A stretch of 29,427 nt of DNA, taken from a virus. The first letter of the stretch is position 1. Every line of letters begins with the position of its first letter. The stretch covers positions 1 to 29,427 of IMG/VR virus record IMGVR_UViG_3300023174_000502. The stretch is one strand, 5' to 3'. The position numbers and the translations under genes are program-made. Below the pieces are notes generated by a model. The model did not search any database and was not told where the DNA came from. It saw only the letters and a program-made list of their open reading frames with translations. Shown one piece after another: positions 9,129 through 24,688 of this stretch.

Positions 9129-9355
9129 CGGTAGTGTGGCACTGGGTAAGATGCCCTGGTTGGCATCGGTATGCGGAATGTCCTGAACTCCATGATGCCG
9201 TTCTTGACCGCCGCAGTCAGCATTTGATTTGTCTGAGCCCTCGCAAGCCCCCATTCCTTGCCCCACTGGAGCGCGGTTTTCCATTCAGGGGCCGGGACCT
9301 CAACTTTACGCTGAATCTCGTCCCGAATGCGTTTTAGAAGCTCGGCAGATTCCAT
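9098..9355 (-). CDS. Winged-helix-like DNA-binding protein (85 aa)
   Basis: 85 aa. The start ATG at 9355 is fixed by a strong SD (AAGGAG at 9368-9363, 7 nt away) and overlaps the end of the metallophosphoesterase-like gene by about 20 bases. Residues 22-57 read as a helix-turn-helix (EWKTALQWGKEWGLARAQTN, QMLTAAVKNGIMEF), followed by a possible beta wing with FRTFRIP and YPVPHYR. A small transcription regulator or DNA-binding accessory is likely; the target is unknown. Confidence 0.72.
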   Translation of the reverse strand: MESAELLKRIRDEIQRKVEVPAPEWKTALQWGKEWGLARAQTNQMLTAAVKNGIMEFRTFRIPMPTRASYPVPHYRCVSSTNSSR

Positions 9356-10373: not shown

Positions 10374-13046
10374 TTAAGCCACATCCAGATCGACTAGCCT
10401 GATTGTCCGGTACAGATCGCCGTTGGTTGCGTCAACGTAACTGGCTCCGACAACGGTCTCACCAAATCCGTAGGCCCGTTTTGGAATCCACGCAGTAGCC
10501 GCAACAGGAGTTGATGCGTATGGCCGCGCATTGGTCACGTCAAAATTGTATGATCGAAAACCCTTGCTTCCGCAATAGCTAGCAATTGCGGTTTGCGACA
10601 CGTAGTAATACGGATCTCCGGTTGCCGGATCAGTTCCCGTTTGCGCACGGATTCCGTTAGCAAGACAAGCATCATATTGGTCAAGACTGAGGTAAAAACC
10701 CTCAGCGCCGGTAGGGGTTGTGTCTTTTGAGATAAAGTCTCCCAGCTTTGATGGGGCAAGCACCCCAGATGCATCAAATGCGTAAATTGGGCACCAAACC
10801 TCACCGTGAGCCAACGGGACAGCGCGGTTCCATCCAGAAACGTGAGCCTCCAACAGATTCCAAAGAAATGCTGACTTTGGAATCTTGTGATAAAACTGGC
10901 CAATCCCGTCGTAATCCAAAGCGTTTGCAGTTGGGATGTAGGGTAGATCAAAATAGGTCGATGCGGTCCATCTAATGTCTGAAATGTAAGCCTGTTCAGT
11001 CGAAGTCACAGAGACTTGCGTGTACCATGGAGCCAAACAAGCCATTGCAGCATTGTTTCGGTCTTTGAAAACATCATCGGAGACACCAGTGCTTTGAACT
11101 GTTCTGTCTGGCCTCCCTAAAACTCTGACAGATGCGTCAACACCACCTTTGCCGCCCCATTTGTTGACCCAAAAATCAGATCCAAAAACATTGGTGGTTG
11201 CTGGGCTTACAGGATTTGTCGTAAAAACTCGCTGAAGATTGTAATCGTAGACGCTGCTGGAAAATCCCCACGGTCCACCAGATGGAACGTAGGAGCAATT
11301 TACGGCAGGATGTGATGCTCCTCCACCAATTGCGGTTCCTATTTGAGGGAATACATATCCATACATTCCGCTGTAATTGCTTGGCTGCGCAAGAATGTAT
11401 GTTTTTTTGGAAGATATGTAAGGTGTATTGCTGTATGATCCAGCACCAAACCGAGACGGCCTCCAATCTGTTCTAAGCTCCATAACGTTTGCCGTGCGCT
11501 CATAGCTAGGTATGTCGCTGAAAGCATTTGCATCAAATTGGTCTATTCCAACAGCAGTTGAAACGGCCACTTGCAATCCAATTGGAGTCAATCTGACAAT
11601 TCCAACCTTTTCTTCAGAAATGTCGGCAACGTCGTTAAAGCTGTTGATAAAACCCTCCTCAACAGCAATCCGTCTGCGAAGTGTTCGCATTGTTTCCATC
11701 CAGGTCGGGACATTTCCGGATTGCCATTGGGTTGCTGCATTCGGTGTTGCTACGTTTTGCGTGTAGTAGTAGGACGGGTAAGCAATTGAAATGTAAGTTG
11801 TAGTAGGATTGATCTGCCAATATGGATCGGTTGAACCAAAAAACACATTGCAATCAATCGGATAGATTCTGACAATTGCATTTAGTCTCTTGCTAGTCAT
11901 CACCAATACATCACCAGAAACCTCAGCGTTGATACCTATGCGTTGCAGCTTAGGCATGAAGTCGTAGACTCCGGTAAAGACAGTGATGTAATCTTCAAAC
12001 ACAGCACCGGAAAGACTGCTGTAAATCTGAACCCTAGCGCGACCCCAAGTAAAGATTGCATCACCAATTGCGGTGTTTGCATTGGTTGGATCTTCGTATT
12101 CCGGAAATATTGCTCGGATATCGTACATGTACCGAGCGTCAACCCAAGCATCCATTGCTCGCATCCATTGGAGCAAAAGAAACGGATTTGCTATGTTGTT
12201 GGCTTTTGCTGATCGCTCCATGCAGACGGCAAGGGAATCCGGTTGTCCATACATTGGAGGCCCGCCAGCAAAATACGGAACGTCACCTTGGAAGTACGGG
12301 AAGAAATATGTGCATGCAGAGCCTCCGGGCCATGTTGTAGCCCAAGTTCCATCTGGTCGCCTTCTAAACGATCTGCAGCCCCTTGGTGGAACTATGTGGC
12401 GGTCTGCGCTCCCGTCTGGAAGCTGAAGAAACACAGTCGCCCCATTGGAACCGCAATTGTGAACCCTCCAACAATCGAAGCGTTGATATGTGTTGAGAAT
12501 CTTAAACTCAGAAACTCCTTCTAGCTTAATGTCAGCAACTGCGATTTTGTGTTTGTGGATTCTTCCGGGAGGCAGTGAAGGAGTTGAGCTTACTGAGGAA
12601 AAATAAGACCTTACGTATGAACTCATCCCAGAGTTCCAATCATCAAAACCTAGGTGAACGTCGTAATCAATGCCATTGATATTGCGCTTGTGTAATTCAA
12701 AAGACTTTTGAATTGATTCAACATTGCAATAGCTGGAATTGAATGATGCAACGTAATGGTCTACATAAACCTGACCACCAACAACGTCCAGATATTTGTT
12801 TTCAAGTTTTGAAAGCTCTACGGCAATCTGCGTCTGCGTTGGCGTGTTTCCTGTCACATAAAAGCTTGCAGCAGGATTGGTGCAATATTCGTATTGAACC
12901 CCAAATGGAATTTTAGAATTTAAACCAATAACAAACGGGCTTTTGCCGTCTAATGTTCTTGCGCACTTGTTGTCAAACCTCGCATACAGATCGTTCAGGT
13001 TGCGAGCATTCCACATCGCATCCTTTCTATCAATTGCCAGTGGCAT
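10374..13046 (-). CDS. Large tail-tip / receptor-binding candidate (890 aa)
   Basis: 890 aa, the largest gene and last of the tail block. No family is recognised. The sequence is rich in Tyr, Ser, Asn and aromatic residues, with many short strand-like segments and scattered Cys, as in large beta-rich virion proteins. The N-terminus (MPLAIDRKDAMWNARNLNDL) could be a virion-anchoring helix. The C-terminus has KRAYGFGETVVGASYVDATN, reminiscent of small carbohydrate-binding-like repeats. By eye the gene is clearly AT-richer and uses more A/T-ending codons than its neighbours, which suggests separate acquisition, typical of host-range genes. It follows the distal tail genes by one base (TGATATG). 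Confidence 0.65.
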   Translation of the reverse strand: MPLAIDRKDAMWNARNLNDLYARFDNKCARTLDGKSPFVIGLNSKIPFGVQYEYCTNPAASFYVTGNTPTQTQIAVELSKLENKYLDVVGGQVYVDHYVASFNSSYCNVESIQKSFELHKRNINGIDYDVHLGFDDWNSGMSSYVRSYFSSVSSTPSLPPGRIHKHKIAVADIKLEGVSEFKILNTYQRFDCWRVHNCGSNGATVFLQLPDGSADRHIVPPRGCRSFRRRPDGTWATTWPGGSACTYFFPYFQGDVPYFAGGPPMYGQPDSLAVCMERSAKANNIANPFLLLQWMRAMDAWVDARYMYDIRAIFPEYEDPTNANTAIGDAIFTWGRARVQIYSSLSGAVFEDYITVFTGVYDFMPKLQRIGINAEVSGDVLVMTSKRLNAIVRIYPIDCNVFFGSTDPYWQINPTTTYISIAYPSYYYTQNVATPNAATQWQSGNVPTWMETMRTLRRRIAVEEGFINSFNDVADISEEKVGIVRLTPIGLQVAVSTAVGIDQFDANAFSDIPSYERTANVMELRTDWRPSRFGAGSYSNTPYISSKKTYILAQPSNYSGMYGYVFPQIGTAIGGGASHPAVNCSYVPSGGPWGFSSSVYDYNLQRVFTTNPVSPATTNVFGSDFWVNKWGGKGGVDASVRVLGRPDRTVQSTGVSDDVFKDRNNAAMACLAPWYTQVSVTSTEQAYISDIRWTASTYFDLPYIPTANALDYDGIGQFYHKIPKSAFLWNLLEAHVSGWNRAVPLAHGEVWCPIYAFDASGVLAPSKLGDFISKDTTPTGAEGFYLSLDQYDACLANGIRAQTGTDPATGDPYYYVSQTAIASYCGSKGFRSYNFDVTNARPYASTPVAATAWIPKRAYGFGETVVGASYVDATNGDLYRTIRLVDLDVA

Positions 13047-13047
13047 A

Positions 13048-13257
13048 TCAATAGAACCAAGACTCTTCCGAGGTCTGTACCGTGGTCGAGCTTACCGGGG
13101 TCTTGAGCGTCGTGCCATTGGCATTCTGCTCGACACGTTGGCCGGGCCCGGCAACAAGCTGGACACGGCGCACGGCCTCAATGAGCTGATTGATGGCCCG
13201 GGCATGGTCTGCCTTCAGGCCGCGCTCGGACAATTTGGCTGGGAGTTGTATCGGCAT
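13048..13257 (-). CDS. Small tail-region protein (69 aa)
   Basis: 69 aa. Helical N-terminal half (LSERGLKADHARAINQLIEA, VRRVQLVAGPGQ), then a Thr/Ser-rich end (NGTTLKTPVSSTTVQTSEES) closing with WFY. The pattern of a short helix followed by glycine/threonine-rich strand resembles small phage proteins lying before fibre genes. It is likely a tail-tip accessory linking to the 890-aa protein encoded next. Function is inferred from position only. Confidence 0.65.
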   Translation of the reverse strand: MPIQLPAKLSERGLKADHARAINQLIEAVRRVQLVAGPGQRVEQNANGTTLKTPVSSTTVQTSEESWFY

Positions 13258-13261
13258 GGCC

Positions 13262-13618
13262 TTAGATCTCGCAGAACTGCGCGAAGATCTTCACCGGGCT
13301 GTTCGATGCTCTGACGTACATCGTGGCATCGACCCACGGGATCAGGATGAACTGCCCGGCAGGAATCTGGAAGCTGTACGGCGAGGAAGGCCCGATTGAG
13401 ACCGGGTTGACCAGATCGAGGTTGACCACCAGAAGGCGGTACGGTGTACCGAGATCCGCGGTCAGATCGAGGGCCTCGTCGGTGGTTCCGACCACCTGAG
13501 TCTGCTGCCCCATATCGGTGCCGGTCATGTTGGCCACCGCGCTGTAGGACAGTGAATTGATCGTTGCACCGCCTTTCGCAGCATAAAGCCGCGCCGACAT
13601 CTCGACTTCGTTGGCCAT
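13262..13618 (-). CDS. Distal tail protein, tandem paralog B (118 aa)
   Basis: 118 aa, clearly homologous to the upstream neighbour (13631-13990). Shared landmarks are M(A)(N/D)E at the start, ARLYA-K-GA, GTDMG-QTQ, EALD, IPAG---LIP and an identical FCEI end; I estimate somewhat under half the residues identical. Beta-rich, with a hydrophobic strand pattern and no catalytic signature. The two may form a hetero-oligomeric ring or collar at the tail tip. The leader CTACCAACACC has no SD. Confidence 0.75.
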   Translation of the reverse strand: MANEVEMSARLYAAKGGATINSLSYSAVANMTGTDMGQQTQVVGTTDEALDLTADLGTPYRLLVVNLDLVNPVSIGPSSPYSFQIPAGQFILIPWVDATMYVRASNSPVKIFAQFCEI

Positions 13619-13630
13619 GGTGTTGGTAGG

Positions 13631-13990
13631 TTAGATCTCGCAGAAGGTGGCCTGAATGGTCACCGAGGAAGTGTCGGCCTTCAGGTAGAGCGTGGCGCTG
13701 ACATAGGGGATCAGCAGCGTCTCGCCGGCCGGGATGCGCATCGTGTAGGTGCCGGAGACAAACCCGGCCTCGACGAAGTTGGTGCTGTCGAGGTTGCTGA
13801 TCAGCAGCTTGTAGGGGCTGGAGACATCGACCGGCACGTCGAGGGCCTCGACCGTGATGCCGATGAGCTGTGTCTGGCTGCCCATGTCGGTGCCGACCAT
13901 GGTGGCGGTTTTGGTGTAGGTTACCGAGGGCAGATACGCACCGTTTTTTGAAGCGTACAGCCGGGCCGTCATTTGAATCTCGTCTGCCAT
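13631..13990 (-). CDS. Distal tail protein, tandem paralog A (119 aa)
   Basis: 119 aa, the upstream member of a tandem duplicated pair. It carries TARLYASKNGAYLPSVTY, GTDMGSQTQLIG, MRIPAGETLLIPYV and ends QATFCEI, aligned end to end with the neighbour without large gaps. It follows the 275-aa minor tail gene, whose own end lies 25 bases away. The leader CACTCACACCTT is A/C-rich and lacks an SD. A structural role in the tail tip is inferred from position and the beta-rich sequence. Confidence 0.75.
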   Translation of the reverse strand: MADEIQMTARLYASKNGAYLPSVTYTKTATMVGTDMGSQTQLIGITVEALDVPVDVSSPYKLLISNLDSTNFVEAGFVSGTYTMRIPAGETLLIPYVSATLYLKADTSSVTIQATFCEI

Positions 13991-14014: not shown

Positions 14015-14842
14015 TTAGAAGAACGGGTAAATATCCAGATCGTATGGGGCGAACGTCCAGGAGATCACCTGCTCGACCTGGTTGGTCTTGGTGATCAGGT
14101 TGGTCGAGTAGTTCGTTTGCTTCCAGCCCCACGCGGTCCCGGATGGAGCCTGCACCTGTCCGGTGATCGGATGAACAGGAACGGGTGGCAGCATTGATGA
14201 GACCGAAAAAGGAAGGCTCCAGATCTGTATGAACGAGAGCGGGTAGTAGACAGGCGGGATGCCTTGCGGAACCTGCGGCAGCCCCAGATTGCCGGAGAAT
14301 GTGGCGATGCGCGTCAGGCTTACCCGAGCCACAGGGAACGAGTCCTCGCCGCGGGCCAGCTTCGCCCAGATCCGGCGAGCAATGGGAAGGTTTCCTAGCG
14401 GAGAAACATCCTCGAGCTTTTGTCCATTCCTGACCGCATCTTCAATGGTCTTCTTGTAGTATGCCGCATCCCCAGTGGCGTCGGCCTCCTTGGCCACAGC
14501 AGATAGCGCAAAAACGCTGATGTCGACGTAATCCGTGCGGAACTCGTAGCGGATGTCGGCGATCTCACCTGGCTGCGGAACCGACTGCTCGTAAATTTTA
14601 ACGCCGGGGTCGTAGCTGCTTCCACCGATAGTGACCGTGGCTTCAGAGTAGGGGCCGTCCTCCCGGATCGAATACTTGGCGCCAATGGCCACCCATTGCG
14701 CCGAGGCGATTCGGAGAACGTCCTTTGGTCCTCTGAATGTAAGCTGAACCACTCGGCCTGTGCCGCTGTTGTCGTAGGATCTCGAAACCTCGATGTAGCC
14801 CGGAAACGCTGCCAGCTCGTTTGCTTGTTGGATCGTCGCCAT
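14015..14842 (-). CDS. Minor tail protein (275 aa)
   Basis: 275 aa, directly after the tape measure gene (stop TAA, one base, then ATG), the slot of distal-tail / tail-tip hub proteins in siphoviruses. Beta-rich N-terminal half (GTGRVVQLTFRGPKDVLRI, then DIRYEFRTDYVDISVFALS), a middle helix, and an aromatic end (TFAPYDLDIYPFF). No lysozyme or peptidase motif is seen. Distal tail protein by position; no family match that I can name. Confidence 0.72.
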   Translation of the reverse strand: MATIQQANELAAFPGYIEVSRSYDNSGTGRVVQLTFRGPKDVLRIASAQWVAIGAKYSIREDGPYSEATVTIGGSSYDPGVKIYEQSVPQPGEIADIRYEFRTDYVDISVFALSAVAKEADATGDAAYYKKTIEDAVRNGQKLEDVSPLGNLPIARRIWAKLARGEDSFPVARVSLTRIATFSGNLGLPQVPQGIPPVYYPLSFIQIWSLPFSVSSMLPPVPVHPITGQVQAPSGTAWGWKQTNYSTNLITKTNQVEQVISWTFAPYDLDIYPFF

Positions 14843-14843
14843 G

Positions 14844-15941
14844 TTATTCGGAGACGGCCTCGGCCGTGCGTTGGGTGTTGCGGCTGATGTCGCGGATGTC
14901 CTGAGCCTGCGTCTTCACGGCGCCAAAGTAGCGGTCCATGTTGCTCTGGAAAGCGGTGAACCCACCAGTGCGTGCGAGCTGATCGCCCGATACCGCGGAT
15001 ACGGCAACCATCTTTCCGGCCGGGCTGTTTTCAAAGGAAGCGTTGCGCATCAGTTCAGCCCTCTTTTCGCGGGCCTCCCTGCGAGCCTGCAGCTCGGTGT
15101 CCTGTTCATCCATTGATGTTCTGAAGGCCTGCAGGCTTTGCGAAATGATGTTTTGAGTCTCACTCACAACACCTTTGCCGGAAATCATGTTCACGAACGT
15201 CTGCGACCGCATTCTGGCGAATGTGTCGAACATATTCCCGACAGCTTCCATCAACTTGAAAAACGGCACCACCACATTGGCTATCAATGCGCCCGTGCCT
15301 GAAGACATGGTTTTGTTCATGATCTCCACGCGATCATTGGCTTCGTCGAGTGTGGTGATGACTTCGTTCGACATGACCATGCCGAGGTTCCTGGCCTGCT
15401 GCGCTGCTTCGCCAAGGCCTTCGACCATTGACGGGATCAGTGCGCCAGAACCCCTGCCAGCAAGTTCTCGAAACGGTTCGAGCAGTTGCTGTGGATTTGA
15501 TACGTTCTCGAAGGCCTTTCCTATCTTCAGGAAGATGTCCTCGAGTTTGGCTGTCTTCAGCTCTTCGGCCGTGATGCCGAATTTGGTGAACGCTGCAATC
15601 AGGCCTTGATTCCCTTGAAGTGCACCAGTCCTAGCCACCGCGATTTTCTCGAGTGCGCTGCTGACTCCTTCCAGGCTTCCACCAGACATCTCGGCGGCGA
15701 ACTGCATCTCTTGCAGGAACTCCGCGGTCACGCCGAGCTGAGTCGACAGGTCGTTGATTTTGCCGGCTGCATCAATGGCCTGCATCCCGAACTGAGCGAG
15801 CTTGTCGACGGTGAAGATATTGGCCAACGACGAGCTGATTTCCCGACTGATACCTTTGGCCAACGAGGTCGCCCTCTTGGCGCCTGTTTCAAAGGCCGTA
15901 CCATCGAACCCCAGCTTTGCCAACAGTGAGAAGATCGCCAT
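14844..15941 (-). CDS. Tape measure protein
   Basis: 365 aa. Typical tape-measure composition: long Ala/Gln/Glu-rich helices (ATSLAKGISREISSSLANIF, LQEMQFAAEMSGGSLEGVSS, EAANQA-type segments), a possible membrane-active hydrophobic patch (TGALIANVVVPFFKLMEAVG) about residues 213-232, and a C-terminal coiled coil. N-terminal FDGTAFETGAKRATSLAKGI is the usual opening. Tape length sets tail length; at about 0.15 nm per residue this predicts a tail near 55 nm, short for a siphovirus. It starts right after the chaperone-position gene. Confidence 0.88.
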   Translation of the reverse strand: MAIFSLLAKLGFDGTAFETGAKRATSLAKGISREISSSLANIFTVDKLAQFGMQAIDAAGKINDLSTQLGVTAEFLQEMQFAAEMSGGSLEGVSSALEKIAVARTGALQGNQGLIAAFTKFGITAEELKTAKLEDIFLKIGKAFENVSNPQQLLEPFRELAGRGSGALIPSMVEGLGEAAQQARNLGMVMSNEVITTLDEANDRVEIMNKTMSSGTGALIANVVVPFFKLMEAVGNMFDTFARMRSQTFVNMISGKGVVSETQNIISQSLQAFRTSMDEQDTELQARREAREKRAELMRNASFENSPAGKMVAVSAVSGDQLARTGGFTAFQSNMDRYFGAVKTQAQDIRDISRNTQRTAEAVSE

Positions 15942-18260: not shown

Positions 18261-18712
18261 TTGGTCTTCGCCCCGAGATCGAGGCTGTAATAGGCGCCTG
18301 AAGCGTCCACGCGGCACGATAGGATGCGCAGCGTCCGGCCTTGGTACATCAGCGTACGCCCGACCACCGGCCGTGGCTTGCAGAAGGTCATAGCGATGCG
18401 GTCGGTGTTCTCCAGGAGAACGAACCCGGAGTCTTCACGCTGCAGCCTCGAGAAGGTCGTGCCCTGGTCGAGCGTGTACAGCGTCGAGTCCATCGAGACC
18501 AGCGTGCTGTCGCACGTCTTCCAGTCGCTGAACATGACCAGGATCCGGGACGTCACGTTGTCCTGAAAACCACCGGCCACCGGGTTATTTGCGTCGATGA
18601 CGGCTGCCGGGATGCATCGGATCGACGAGCCCTCCCAGATGAACATCGGCGCCCCGAGCATTTGCTGGAGCACCGCCATGCCCTGCTGGAGACTGGATCC
18701 GATGGTGGTCAT
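18257..18712 (-). CDS. Head-tail connector / stopper candidate (151 aa)
   Basis: 151 aa, beta-rich with short helices, in the position of head-closure proteins, directly before the neck protein. Visible pieces: LQQMLGAPMFIWEGSSIRCI, VTSRILVMFSDWKTCDSTLV, LLENTDRIAMTFCKPRP, and a closing RTLRILSCRVDASGAYYSLD. It shares one base with the stop of the upstream appendage-type gene (TGATG). The role is inferred from order. Confidence 0.68.
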   Translation of the reverse strand: MTTIGSSLQQGMAVLQQMLGAPMFIWEGSSIRCIPAAVIDANNPVAGGFQDNVTSRILVMFSDWKTCDSTLVSMDSTLYTLDQGTTFSRLQREDSGFVLLENTDRIAMTFCKPRPVVGRTLMYQGRTLRILSCRVDASGAYYSLDLGAKTK

Positions 18713-20455: not shown

Positions 20456-21814
20456 TTAGGCGAGTTTGGTTTCTAGGGCTTGAACTTTAGCAGCGAGTTC
20501 TTTGATGGCCGACACAAGTCGAGCTTCGGTCTTGCTCCATCCGGTGACGGTCAGGAATCCATCCTGTTCGCCAACGACATCGGGATAAACCTCCTGCATT
20601 TCTTGAGCAACAAAACCGATCTGATGGCCAGAACCGTTTTTGAAATCAAACTCGACCGGACGCAATGAGACGATTTTTTCAAGCTGCGAAGGAATGCTTG
20701 CGATGTTTTCCTTCAGACGAGAATCAGAGAACGTACCGAAAGCGGCAGCATTGGCTCCGTTGGCAGTAATCTGACCCGAACCAGCTGCGTTGTTATTGAT
20801 CGTGAATCGAACAAGTATCTGAGAAGTGGTCGAATCGTTATCAAACTTACCGACAAGTAAAGCAGGATTGGCGGTATCACCAGTCGAGCTTTGAATGGCC
20901 AGCGTTGTGGCTCCGCCAGTTCCGCGAGCAAAAACGCGCGAGCTGTTTGTGTTTGTCGTCGCCCCCACCAAAAGATTCCCGCTCGCATCGAGGGTCATTG
21001 TTTGGGTGAAGGTGGCAACATTACCGGCTGTGCCGCTTGGTGCGGTCAACCAAGAGTGAATCCCGTTTTGCTGCTGGTAGTACGAAGCGAAATTGGTGGT
21101 CTTGTAAATCAACTGTGCGGCAGCATTGGCGTACATATTGTGTGTCAGAATTGACGTGGCAGATCCACCCATCAATCCAAGCACACTTGAAACCTCCAAG
21201 CCTTTCCAGCTTACGCCCCACGCACTCGGCGTAACCCCCACGCCGACGTTGCCGAGACTGTCCAGCGTAACTTGAGCGGAGGTTGCCCCATTTGCCCCAA
21301 GTTGAAGAGCTTGTAACGAACGGTTGTAAGTAATGTTTCCGCCATTGGTTCCAGCGCACTCAAGATACACCCGCGCATTTGAGGCACCGGCACTCGTCGC
21401 TCGGACAGCAATCGTCGGAAGCGTTGCACCCAATACGTCGATGTTGTAAGTCGGACTCGCAACCCCCACGCCCAGCCCCGTGCTGTTGAGGGTCATTCGG
21501 GTGCCGCCTGCGCCGTCATACCATGAGAATACACCAAGCGGTGCAATGCGGTATTGAGCGAGACTGTTCGCGGCAAACTCAAGCGTGTTGGTTGTCGGAA
21601 GATAGAGACCATTTGCCGGAATTGAAGATCCGGTGACGTTGAGGCTGGCGAGGGTGGCGGTGGGAGAACAAGCGAGAATGTTGTTGATTGATATGCGCTT
21701 GGTTGTACCACTTGCTGCCATGGTCGTGTCAGAAACATCGACTAACGGAAACATGTCATTTGCTGGATCAGCACCAGTCAGTGCCGTCAGGGCTGTGATT
21801 TTTGAATCAGGCAT
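20456..21814 (-). CDS. Tail/head fibre with C-terminal S74 intramolecular chaperone
   Basis: 452 aa. N-terminal attachment-type segment (MPDSKITALTALTGADPAND then MFPLVDVSD), a long Thr/Ser/Gly/Ala beta repeat region, and a C-terminal chaperone domain starting SDSRLKENI at residue 363, with GHQIGFVAQEMQEVYPDVV further on. In this family (peptidase S74, as in endosialidases) the domain trimerises the fibre and then cuts itself off, using the Ser-Lys pair of SDxRLK; here S363 and K368 are both present, so release of a 90-residue tail piece is expected. A terminal coiled coil (IKELAAKVQALETKLA) ends it. It is a receptor-binding candidate, placed among the head genes rather than after the tail genes. 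Confidence 0.9.
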   Translation of the reverse strand: MPDSKITALTALTGADPANDMFPLVDVSDTTMAASGTTKRISINNILACSPTATLASLNVTGSSIPANGLYLPTTNTLEFAANSLAQYRIAPLGVFSWYDGAGGTRMTLNSTGLGVGVASPTYNIDVLGATLPTIAVRATSAGASNARVYLECAGTNGGNITYNRSLQALQLGANGATSAQVTLDSLGNVGVGVTPSAWGVSWKGLEVSSVLGLMGGSATSILTHNMYANAAAQLIYKTTNFASYYQQQNGIHSWLTAPSGTAGNVATFTQTMTLDASGNLLVGATTNTNSSRVFARGTGGATTLAIQSSTGDTANPALLVGKFDNDSTTSQILVRFTINNNAAGSGQITANGANAAAFGTFSDSRLKENIASIPSQLEKIVSLRPVEFDFKNGSGHQIGFVAQEMQEVYPDVVGEQDGFLTVTGWSKTEARLVSAIKELAAKVQALETKLA

Positions 21815-21817
21815 GGG

Positions 21818-22048
21818 TCAGTTGGATTGAATTTGGAGTTTGAAAGTGTCTTCCTGCTGAAGAAAACTAGCGTCTTCCCGCAACAAAGAATCAAAAGTGC
21901 CAAGTGTGATAACTAGCTTTGAGGTTCCGTCTTCCTGCCACAGGAATCCATCATCTTCTCTTAGAACATCTCGGCGCAACACGGGCAAGTCAGTGCCACC
22001 GGATTGACCGGTAAACAACCGATTTAGTGCTATGCCGAGTGAAATCAT
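21818..22048 (-). CDS. Small protein with two internal repeats (76 aa)
   Basis: 76 aa. Two copies of a unit lie at about residues 27-50 and 54-76: LREDDGFLWQEDGTSKLVI and LREDASFLQQEDTFKLQI, with a leucine/acidic 'L-ED--FL-QED' rhythm predicting stacked beta hairpins. Similar LxED repeats occur in small phage structural proteins near capsid genes. Its ATG abuts the stop of the 86-aa gene. It may decorate the capsid or anchor the fibre encoded next. Confidence 0.65.
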   Translation of the reverse strand: MISLGIALNRLFTGQSGGTDLPVLRRDVLREDDGFLWQEDGTSKLVITLGTFDSLLREDASFLQQEDTFKLQIQSN

Positions 22049-22552: not shown

Positions 22553-24688
22553 TTAGGCGGTGACGAGAACCTCGGCCTGCGTGGTGTCCGCAGCGGCGGC
22601 GCCGAACATGATATCGTAGGACGCCATGTGGCTGCGGCTCGCCCGGCTGTACCAGACCGACAACAAGCAGCTCAGACCGTTTGTAGTGGTCACCGTGCGC
22701 TGCTCAATGAACTCGCCGGCGATCATGCCGACCGGGAGGCCCGCGGCGATGGCGATCGAATCAGGGCCGCAGACGAAGCCAACGGCGTTGGTCTCGGCCG
22801 AGGTCCAGCGGTTGTTCTCGGCGATCACGTCGAACCCGAACCGGCCGTTGGCGAGCTGGTCGAACCGGCCATCGGGGAAGTAGTTCGCGGCGCCCGAGAA
22901 CTGCAGGCGGGCCAGGTGGCCACCGTCCAAGATCAGGTTCTTGCTGCGGTAGTTCTTGGCCAAGGCCAGGATCGCAGGCAGATCCGAGGTGTCAAAGTTC
23001 GCGGCCGTGCCGATAGCGGTGGCGGCGCCGTAGTTCCCGGAGACCATCAGAGCGGTCAGCACGTCGCTGATGCCGTAGGCGAACAAGTCAGCCGAACCCG
23101 CGGCCAAGTCGGCCAGGCTGAAGCCCTGGTTGAGCTCGGCCTGAGTCACGGTGAAGTTCTTCGAGATCTGGTTCACGGTCACCGAGGTGGCCGCCAGCGT
23201 GCTGTCGTTGTTGGTCTCCCAGGAGGTCGGGTTGGTCTGGGCCGCGGTGCCAGTGGTGTATTTCTTCACCTGCACGGTGGCGCGGGGGCGCAAGTTGTCC
23301 AGGCCGACGTTGCGGCTGAACGCGGAGACCAAGGCCAGCCGGTTGGCAGCCACGGTGATCACGGCGTCGGCGAGGTAGTCGACCACCAAGCCCGAGGCGA
23401 ACGTGTTGGCGTTCTGCGGGGCGTGAATGGCGCTCTGGCGCAGCAGCTCGCTGTGGTTCTGGATCAACCAGGAGCGGCGATCAGCACCAGCCTGCAGCTT
23501 CTTGTGAGCCTCGAGCAACGGGTTGCCGAGGTTCTCAATGCGGGCCGGGGCGATGGGCTCCGGGGCCGGGGCGGCGGTGGGGGCCTTGGCGCTGATGGCA
23601 GCGGCGACGGCCTTGGCGACGATGCTCTCGATGGACGAGGCATCCAAAGTAGCGGTCGGCGCAGTAGGAGCGGCCGCCACCACGGTGTTGGAATCAGTCA
23701 TTTTGTGTGGTGTCTGCTGTGATGTCGGCGCGGTTGTCGCGCCATCTGCGGCAGCGGAAGTGCTGACCGTAGAAATCTTGTCTTCGGGCTCGGAGAGCTC
23801 CTGTTCCTGGTCGATCTGGGCAGCCAGCGCCTTGAACCAGTCACGTCCGGCGGCACCTCCCCAAAGGTTGGCGGCCACGTCGGCCGGGGTGTCGGCTTCG
23901 GCATCGAGGAAGCGCTCATTGCGGGCCCACCAGGCCACAGCCTTCTTCACCTTGTCGACGCTGGGCTCCTCGCCCTTGGCCATGTTGCGGGCCTCGATCA
24001 CGGTGGCCTCCTCGAGGCCGTCGCCACCAAGGCCATCCTCGTACTGCCGGATGCCGCGCTCGAGGTTTCGGACTACAGTCGGAGGCGCCGTCTTGGTCAC
24101 CGCCCGCGGGTGCCAACAGGCAGCCATGGCCAGCATCTCGGTCATGCTGTCAGCCAGGCCGAAAGCCACAGCTTCCTGCGCGGTGAACCAGGTCTCGGCG
24201 GTCATGGCCGCTCGGATCTGCGCCACCGGCTTTCCGGTGCGCTTGGAATAGATGCCAGCCAGAACCTCGGCGTGCTGATCTAAGGCACCAGCCATCTTGC
24301 GCATATCGTCGGCCGTACCGGCAACCATGCCGGACGGGTCGTGAATCATGAACAGCGCCGCATCGGCGATCTCCACGGTGTCGCCGGCCAAAGCGATGAT
24401 CGAAGCGATTGAGGCAGCGATGCCGACCACCCGGGTTGTCACCTGGGCATTACGGCCGCGCAGCATATTGTAGATGGCCAGACCGTCCCAGACGTTGCCG
24501 CCGGGGCTGTTGATCTCGACCACCAAAGGGCCAGGGCCCACAGACTGCAGAGCATCGGAGAAGGCCTTGGCCGAAACACCAGAACCACCGAACCAGTCTT
24601 CGCCGATCTGGTCGAAGATCTGGATCATGGCGGGCTCAGTCGCCGCCGCTCGGGGCTGGTAGGAAAGCCAGTTTGTGACCTTGGTCAT
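22553..24688 (-). CDS. ClpP-like prohead protease fused to major capsid protein
   Basis: 711 aa with three parts. Residues about 20-190 are an S14/ClpP-type protease: INSPGGNVWDGL about 60-70, nucleophile S93 in GIAASIAS, H116 in MIHDPSG, and an acidic site near ETWFTAQEAVAFGLAD (about 165-180). Residues about 205-290 carry a helical module ending in LWGGAAGRDWFKAL, a 'WGGdpG' motif known from many phage proteins. Residues 330-711 are an Ala/Pro-rich leader, then the HK97-type capsid protein (LLEAHKKLQAGADRRSWLIQ, then VGLDNLRPRATVQVK, and ITVAANRLALVSAF). An in-frame ATG at residue 330 (23701), preceded by ACACCACACAAA, could give a separate 382-aa capsid precursor. The start overlaps the portal stop (ATGA). 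Confidence 0.88.
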   Translation of the reverse strand: MTKVTNWLSYQPRAAATEPAMIQIFDQIGEDWFGGSGVSAKAFSDALQSVGPGPLVVEINSPGGNVWDGLAIYNMLRGRNAQVTTRVVGIAASIASIIALAGDTVEIADAALFMIHDPSGMVAGTADDMRKMAGALDQHAEVLAGIYSKRTGKPVAQIRAAMTAETWFTAQEAVAFGLADSMTEMLAMAACWHPRAVTKTAPPTVVRNLERGIRQYEDGLGGDGLEEATVIEARNMAKGEEPSVDKVKKAVAWWARNERFLDAEADTPADVAANLWGGAAGRDWFKALAAQIDQEQELSEPEDKISTVSTSAAADGATTAPTSQQTPHKMTDSNTVVAAAPTAPTATLDASSIESIVAKAVAAAISAKAPTAAPAPEPIAPARIENLGNPLLEAHKKLQAGADRRSWLIQNHSELLRQSAIHAPQNANTFASGLVVDYLADAVITVAANRLALVSAFSRNVGLDNLRPRATVQVKKYTTGTAAQTNPTSWETNNDSTLAATSVTVNQISKNFTVTQAELNQGFSLADLAAGSADLFAYGISDVLTALMVSGNYGAATAIGTAANFDTSDLPAILALAKNYRSKNLILDGGHLARLQFSGAANYFPDGRFDQLANGRFGFDVIAENNRWTSAETNAVGFVCGPDSIAIAAGLPVGMIAGEFIEQRTVTTTNGLSCLLSVWYSRASRSHMASYDIMFGAAAADTTQAEVLVTA

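Follow-up and report, generated by a model that had tools for sequence, protein, structure and literature searches.

The gene at 10374..13046 of the window, by which we mean the whole virus record of 29,427 bases that was analysed, has been exchanged in its entirety for an allele of a lower-GC sister lineage, here called A. This focus gene encodes a protein of 890 amino acids (the focus protein), and both its position and its full-length sequence are conserved among relatives. We think it fairly probable that the product is a virion protein of the tail tip, belonging to a spike or the baseplate, and that it was recombination which exchanged the whole gene for the A allele.

The analysis offers a probable role for a widespread protein family of uncultured phages which has no name in the databases, and it provides a view at near base resolution of a tail gene exchanged as one unit between lineages, with the odd composition of one genome traceable to an allele that belongs to a sister lineage. 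The type of allele would predict host shifts in phages that have never been grown, if the focus protein sets the host range.

The focus gene and its surroundings

The genes needed in the following sections are these.

10374..13046, minus strand: focus gene (890 aa), a conserved gene of the tail block, present here as the low-GC A-type allele
13048..13257, minus strand: 69-aa gene directly upstream of the focus gene
13262..13618, minus strand: 118-aa gene, tandem paralogue, 53% identical to 13631..13990
13631..13990, minus strand: 119-aa gene, tandem paralogue of 13262..13618
14015..14842, minus strand: 275-aa conserved tail gene of unrecognised family, used for sorting the backbones into A and B
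14844..15941, minus strand: tape-measure protein, 365 aa (phrog_9483, E 2.2e-19)
20456..21814, minus strand: tail-fibre protein with an S74 intramolecular-chaperone domain (phrog_5668, E 3.3e-29; PF13884, E 8.6e-16)

The frame of 890 codons was confirmed to be open on the minus strand, which the original prediction had left unstated, and the plus-strand reading of 10374..13046 is full of stops. The GC content is lower than in the rest of the window, as had been claimed: GC is 0.465 and GC3 is 0.426, against means of 0.605 (sd 0.032, minimum 0.526) and 0.763 (sd 0.086) in the 16 other picked ORFs. Only one of the 39 listed ORFs lies below it in GC (21818..22048, 76 aa, 0.459), and the four lowest-GC 1-kb windows of the record are all situated inside the focus gene. 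The claimed richness in Tyr, Asn and Ser holds for Tyr (6.4% vs 2.6% in the other ORFs) and Asn (5.4% vs 3.8%), while the excess of Ser (8.2% vs 6.8%) is slight, because the structural proteins alone have 7.8%.

Upstream and on the same strand are present the terminase (26679), the portal (24685), an ORF at 22553 in which a ClpP-type protease is joined to a longer protein, the S74 tail fibre (20456), a gene at 18712 whose N-terminus is of fibre/baseplate type, and small conserved genes. The ORF at 22553..24688 has 711 aa with the ClpP-type head-maturation protease at its start (residues 54-183), and its remainder is possibly the capsid part of a protease-capsid fusion. The order of nine genes, from 17463 down to the focus gene, is kept in all 121 loci which hold all nine; the focus gene is the last of them, at the end of the tail block as predicted, and in 135 loci its start lies 1-10 bases beyond the 69-aa gene, with up to eight contigs possibly counted twice in both numbers. 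The two tandem paralogues come after the tail genes and before the focus gene. The next clear gene beyond it is a metallophosphoesterase at 9334. A profile of the 275-aa gene (39 members) matched no PHROG at E <= 0.1 and, in the PDB, gave just E 2.2 and 2.3. None of the scanned proteins was recognised as a tail sheath, from which we infer a siphovirus-type tail. Scanning for promoters and terminators around the focus gene gave 0 promoter-like and 4 terminator-like sites, which is no more than in shuffled sequences.

No family was recognised for the focus protein, in agreement with the original prediction: nothing was matched at E <= 0.001 in Pfam, PHROGs, NCBIfam or the PDB sequences, and comparison with 50,697 phage records gave only noise (E 5) for the focus protein and no match for the B-type copy of L040. 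Against the PDB sequences, profile A1 had no match at E up to 10 and profile A4 just 14 unrelated chains (E 0.45-1.8). The description of the protein as an orphan has to be given up, for complete copies, at least 39% identical to the protein of the window, occur in 129 distinct IMG/VR records other than the window itself. Alignment A1 of 31 copies has a mean column identity of 62% over the full length. Single-sequence patterns of the focus protein picked out 112 viral_contigs stretches with relatives and those of alignment A1 picked out 169, with 80 loci retained from either search; a B-type query gave 75. The focus gene is thus a core gene of a group of uncultured phages.

More distant branches were looked for by a scan with conserved-motif patterns, which returned 87 stretches and no new branch. 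Four loci (L163, L201, L203 and L217) gave no match to the focus protein in the loci check, and L163 holds just its first 29 residues. In genome_contigs the family-alignment patterns returned 36 stretches with no relative, and the terminase patterns, used for a prophage or host, 20 stretches with none, in scans of a kind that misses distant relatives. The lysozyme-like gene downstream matches phages of Cellulophaga and Microcystis, and the primase matches, weakly, phages of many hosts. In the relative L147 the frame is interrupted midway by one TAG (L147:9229-9231), for which sequencing error, decay and readthrough are all possible explanations. L149 and L159 are one contig of 32,237 bases with both ends inside the focus gene, as expected if the genome, of about 32 kb, were circular or permuted.

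Exchange of the whole gene between two lineages

The 275-aa gene was used to sort 119 distinct records, the window included, into backbone A (34 records, less than 52% identical to the window) and backbone B (85 records). All 34 A backbones carry A-type focus alleles, and B-type alleles are found in 82 of the 85 B backbones, the three others with A-type alleles being the window, L001 and L010. A truncated locus which was left out of the count, L095, resembles a fourth such case, with B-like neighbours and a focus gene 80% identical. None of the 34 A backbones has a B-type allele, and from these proportions (3/85 against 0/34) the exchange is read as going from A-type to B-type backbones.

The same conflict is present in the trees. 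In the backbone tree, made from four proteins of 44 loci, the window adjoins L108 and L010 adjoins L076, both inside B with strong support, and the tree of the focus gene itself unites all 11 A-type rows in one clade; the A-type label takes four changes on the former tree vs one on the latter. Holding the A-type rows together on the backbone was rejected (p-AU 3.4e-40), and the same was the outcome for the window held together with L108 on the focus-gene tree (p-AU 6.5e-34) and for L010 with L076 and L068 (p-AU 1.3e-07). The log-likelihood differences in these tests are large, 884 to 1593, and belong to quick trees with long-branch warnings whose groups were named after identities already seen. 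The exact donor lies outside the sample, because the allele of the window branches beside, and not within, the sampled A-lineage alleles.

The edges of the exchange can be followed in the comparison of L001 with L063 by bins of 100 bp. Their identity is 89-100% over 1.8 kb upstream of the focus gene, 29-69% inside it and 84-98% over 1.7 kb downstream; it drops within about 40 bp before the ATG and is back within 20 bp after the stop. These two loci differ by a clean exchange of a single gene; beyond the upstream flank, in the tape measure, their identity drops once more (bins down to 40%). Against L063 the window shows the same pattern, with flanks of 76-90% in the nearest 1.1 kb upstream and 80-94% over 1.7 kb downstream. 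Compared with L111, the window keeps an identity of 90-100% for about 3.2 kb upstream; from there identity drops through the 69-aa gene (86%, 72%) to 33-67% in the focus gene and stays low downstream, and hence in this pair the exchanged stretch is larger than the focus gene. Similar flanks with dissimilar focus genes were found in 13 of 116 pairs (97 loci, 89 distinct) by blastn identities, which are sums of pieces and can exceed 100%.

The low GC content agrees with the same origin. In the 34 A backbones the focus gene has a GC of 0.476 vs 0.480 in the 4-kb upstream flank, in the 82 B backbones with B allele 0.588 vs 0.567, and in the three B backbones with A allele 0.459 vs 0.545; the window has the largest deficit among all 119 records (-0.114). 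As the GC of the A allele fits the A flanks and falls below the B flanks, the low GC is that of the donor. It could be argued that a protein rich in Tyr and Asn, the codons of which are AT-rich, has a low GC by its own nature and without any exchange, and to this we give next to no probability: the orthologues of the B lineage have a GC of 0.588, higher than their flanks, and rule it out as the cause of the dip, and GC3, which is largely independent of the protein, is 0.426 in the copy of the window against mostly 0.6-0.9 in the B-type copies. The conflict of the trees, the clean swap of one gene between L001 and L063 and the composition fitting the donor lineage bear out the horizontal replacement proposed in the original prediction, with the correction that the gene which came in is an orthologous allele from a sister lineage and not a foreign gene.

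The focus gene is exchanged, yet it is not the most exchanged gene of the block. In a crude sorting of each gene into two clusters, from which 17463 and 13262 (split 76/1 and 2/75) were not used and in which L086 and L089 of an intermediate lineage fall differently, disagreement with the backbone was seen for the focus allele in 4 of 77 loci, for the tape measure in 18 and for the 119-aa gene in 28, so that the allele of the latter is at odds with the backbone more often than that of the focus gene; the 69-aa gene follows the backbone clade in 77 of 77. When distances were compared with those of the eight other genes, the 119-aa gene had a Spearman correlation of 0.07-0.16 with seven and of 0.49 with its paralogue, and since it hardly correlates with the seven it may be exchanged very often. 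L106 differs from the window in a block that reaches from the putative tail tube as far as the 14015 gene, and the genes on either side are alike.

Predicted fold and putative role at the tail tip

Three parts of the focus protein were distinguished in the predicted models.

12306..12911, minus strand: residues 46-247, putative XD1-like beta-sandwich with long insertions (model of residues 1-262, VIA)
10881..11282, minus strand: residues 589-722, conserved in sequence, pLDDT under 50
10377..10880, minus strand: residues 723-890, C-terminal region, modelled with fair confidence

The full-length model, a single chain, has a mean pLDDT of 70.0; Foldseek found nothing for it at E <= 0.001 in PDB or BFVD, and its VIA list is taken up by pairings of residues 332-416 with unrelated folds. 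When residues 1-262 were predicted alone, the best of five models (62.7-78.1) had a mean pLDDT of 78.1. Foldseek gave no match at E <= 0.001 for this part in BFVD, and VIA gave eight best entries with Z from 5.9 to 3.1, 78-86 residues aligned and rmsd 3.0-4.2, followed by cupredoxins and others at Z 2.7 or less. The eight are 6o38 (CpaA, Z 5.9), 4dny (StcE, Z 5.3), 24qj (Solidus gp83 tailspike), 7rfo and 7rej (CBA120 TSP4), 9ny6 (capsid spike of phage Pa223), 9f4b (KP1 baseplate) and 5iv5 (T4 baseplate, a chain of 602 residues which we take to be T4 gp10). Among the 50 BFVD rows shown, 9 of the 13 with telling names are tail-fibre, spike or RBP, all at E > 0.001.

The range matched in TSP4 is 78/79-178. 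In the published description of this protein (PMC8825819), XD1 of TSP4 comprises residues 80-178, its structural relatives are given as T4 gp9, gp10, CpaA (6O38) and StcE (4DNY), and its role is described as not fully understood and seemingly that of a spacer. Four of the five XD1 proteins named there (TSP4, gp10, CpaA and StcE) are thus among the eight best VIA entries, and T4 gp9, the closest published XD1 relative, is absent from the list for residues 1-262 and has Z 2.9 with the full-length model. VIA calls Z 7-8 typical for models without a true match, and none here reaches 8, the best being 5.9. The XD1 likeness is therefore a lead which agrees with the position of the gene and is not a proof of membership.

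The predicted beta-sandwich at the N-terminus aligns weakly with the XD1 range of TSP4 as delimited in PMC8825819, and the focus gene stands in the tail block like the genes of the XD1-bearing baseplate and tailspike proteins. In contrast, no sequence similarity to these proteins was found, the VIA Z of the TSP4 and T4 entries is just 3.1-4.3, XD2/XD3 jellyrolls and a catalytic beta-helix were not recognised in the focus protein, and its phage looks like a siphovirus and not like a myovirus. The best VIA matches, CpaA and StcE, are secreted metalloproteases with XD1-like glycan-binding modules; the likeness is limited to the module, and the focus protein has no protease family match.

Together with gene position, the weak XD1-type fold matches support a tail-tip, baseplate or spike role, and this much of the receptor-binding tail tip originally predicted is retained, the receptor binding itself being putative. 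The protein could also be an enzyme or another late protein encoded after the tail genes and be no part of the virion, which would suit the lack of a sequence match to any tail protein and the metallophosphoesterase and lysozyme-like gene that follow downstream. We regard this as very unlikely, since the position of the gene is fixed directly behind the tail genes, the fold matches lean to spikes and baseplates, and no enzyme family was matched. A match to a non-virion enzyme family, named in the original prediction as what would refute it, did not appear in Pfam, PHROGs or NCBIfam, which lend no support to such an enzyme.

Mechanism, variability and host range

For the tail-tip protein that we favour, the following course can be proposed. 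The focus protein, likely as a trimer, would dock on the tail by its N-terminal part with the XD1-like beta-sandwich, and its middle and C-terminal parts would be exposed towards the host surface; its virion location, trimeric state, docking and host contact are what we infer. The gene would be inherited as one unit, and recombination in the conserved flanks would have swapped it whole, docking part included, for the allele of lineage A, with the swapped gene still bearing the base composition of the donor. Given the good conservation of its docking partners upstream, an entire foreign allele could work in the new backbone, and this would explain why the exchange takes the focus gene as one piece.

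The variability of the gene is not of the kind expected from the original prediction, which had proposed to look for local hypervariability among close relatives. The pN/pS values of eight close pairs are 0.11-0.24, indicating purifying selection in all eight. Among 77 loci, thinned to 65, the focus gene and the putative tail-tube gene have the same median protein distance, 0.50; the tape measure, the most divergent gene of the block, exceeds both at 0.70, and most neighbours lie lower, at 0.17-0.45. Residues 361-390, 541-570, 661-690 and 751-810 are less conserved between the allele clades than the N-terminal third, and C-terminal residues 723-890 are likewise more diverged than that third. 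A hypervariable receptor-binding region was not found in whole-gene averages and bins of 30 residues, in which the divergence is diffuse. The conserved N-terminal third and the variable stretches fit an inner docking and an outer part, far from a hypervariable tip.

These values can also be read in favour of a conserved hub or baseplate of the tail tip which does not choose the host, with the host range set by the S74 fibre (20456..21814) and the exchange being ordinary, unselected mosaic recombination. The strong purifying selection and full-length conservation, the divergence resembling that of the putative tail-tube gene, the more frequent disagreement of the tape measure and 119-aa gene with the backbone, and the clear tail-fibre match of the S74 gene all suit this explanation, which we hold to be possible, though we lean against it. 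The XD1-type matches include spikes besides baseplate proteins, and S74 was matched in 37 loci vs 120 for the focus gene, most loci being cut before the S74 slot, which limits any comparison of the variability of the two genes.

The opposite extension of the tail-tip reading is a host-specificity spike which can be exchanged only whole, including its docking part, so that the B phages with an A allele would have moved to hosts of lineage A. Exchange only in one piece would then follow from a docking site on the tail that is the same in both lineages, and host jumps of uncultured phages could be read from the type of allele. We consider it unlikely, and that the exchange changed the host range at all is a guess.

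Receptor-binding proteins of the siphovirus tail tip are known from lambda gpJ and the lactococcal RBPs. Like these, the focus gene is the last of the tail block, large and horizontally exchanged; in contrast, the focus protein has no homology to them, its gene was swapped whole with the anchor, and it shows no hypervariable tip. The C-terminal domain characteristic of S74 tail fibres is present in 20456..21814 and absent from the focus protein at E up to 1.

A second dip in GC was observed between the capsid and tail genes, formed by the S74 fibre 20456..21814 (0.526) and the 76-aa ORF 21818..22048 (0.459), and this pair is a candidate for a second exchange.
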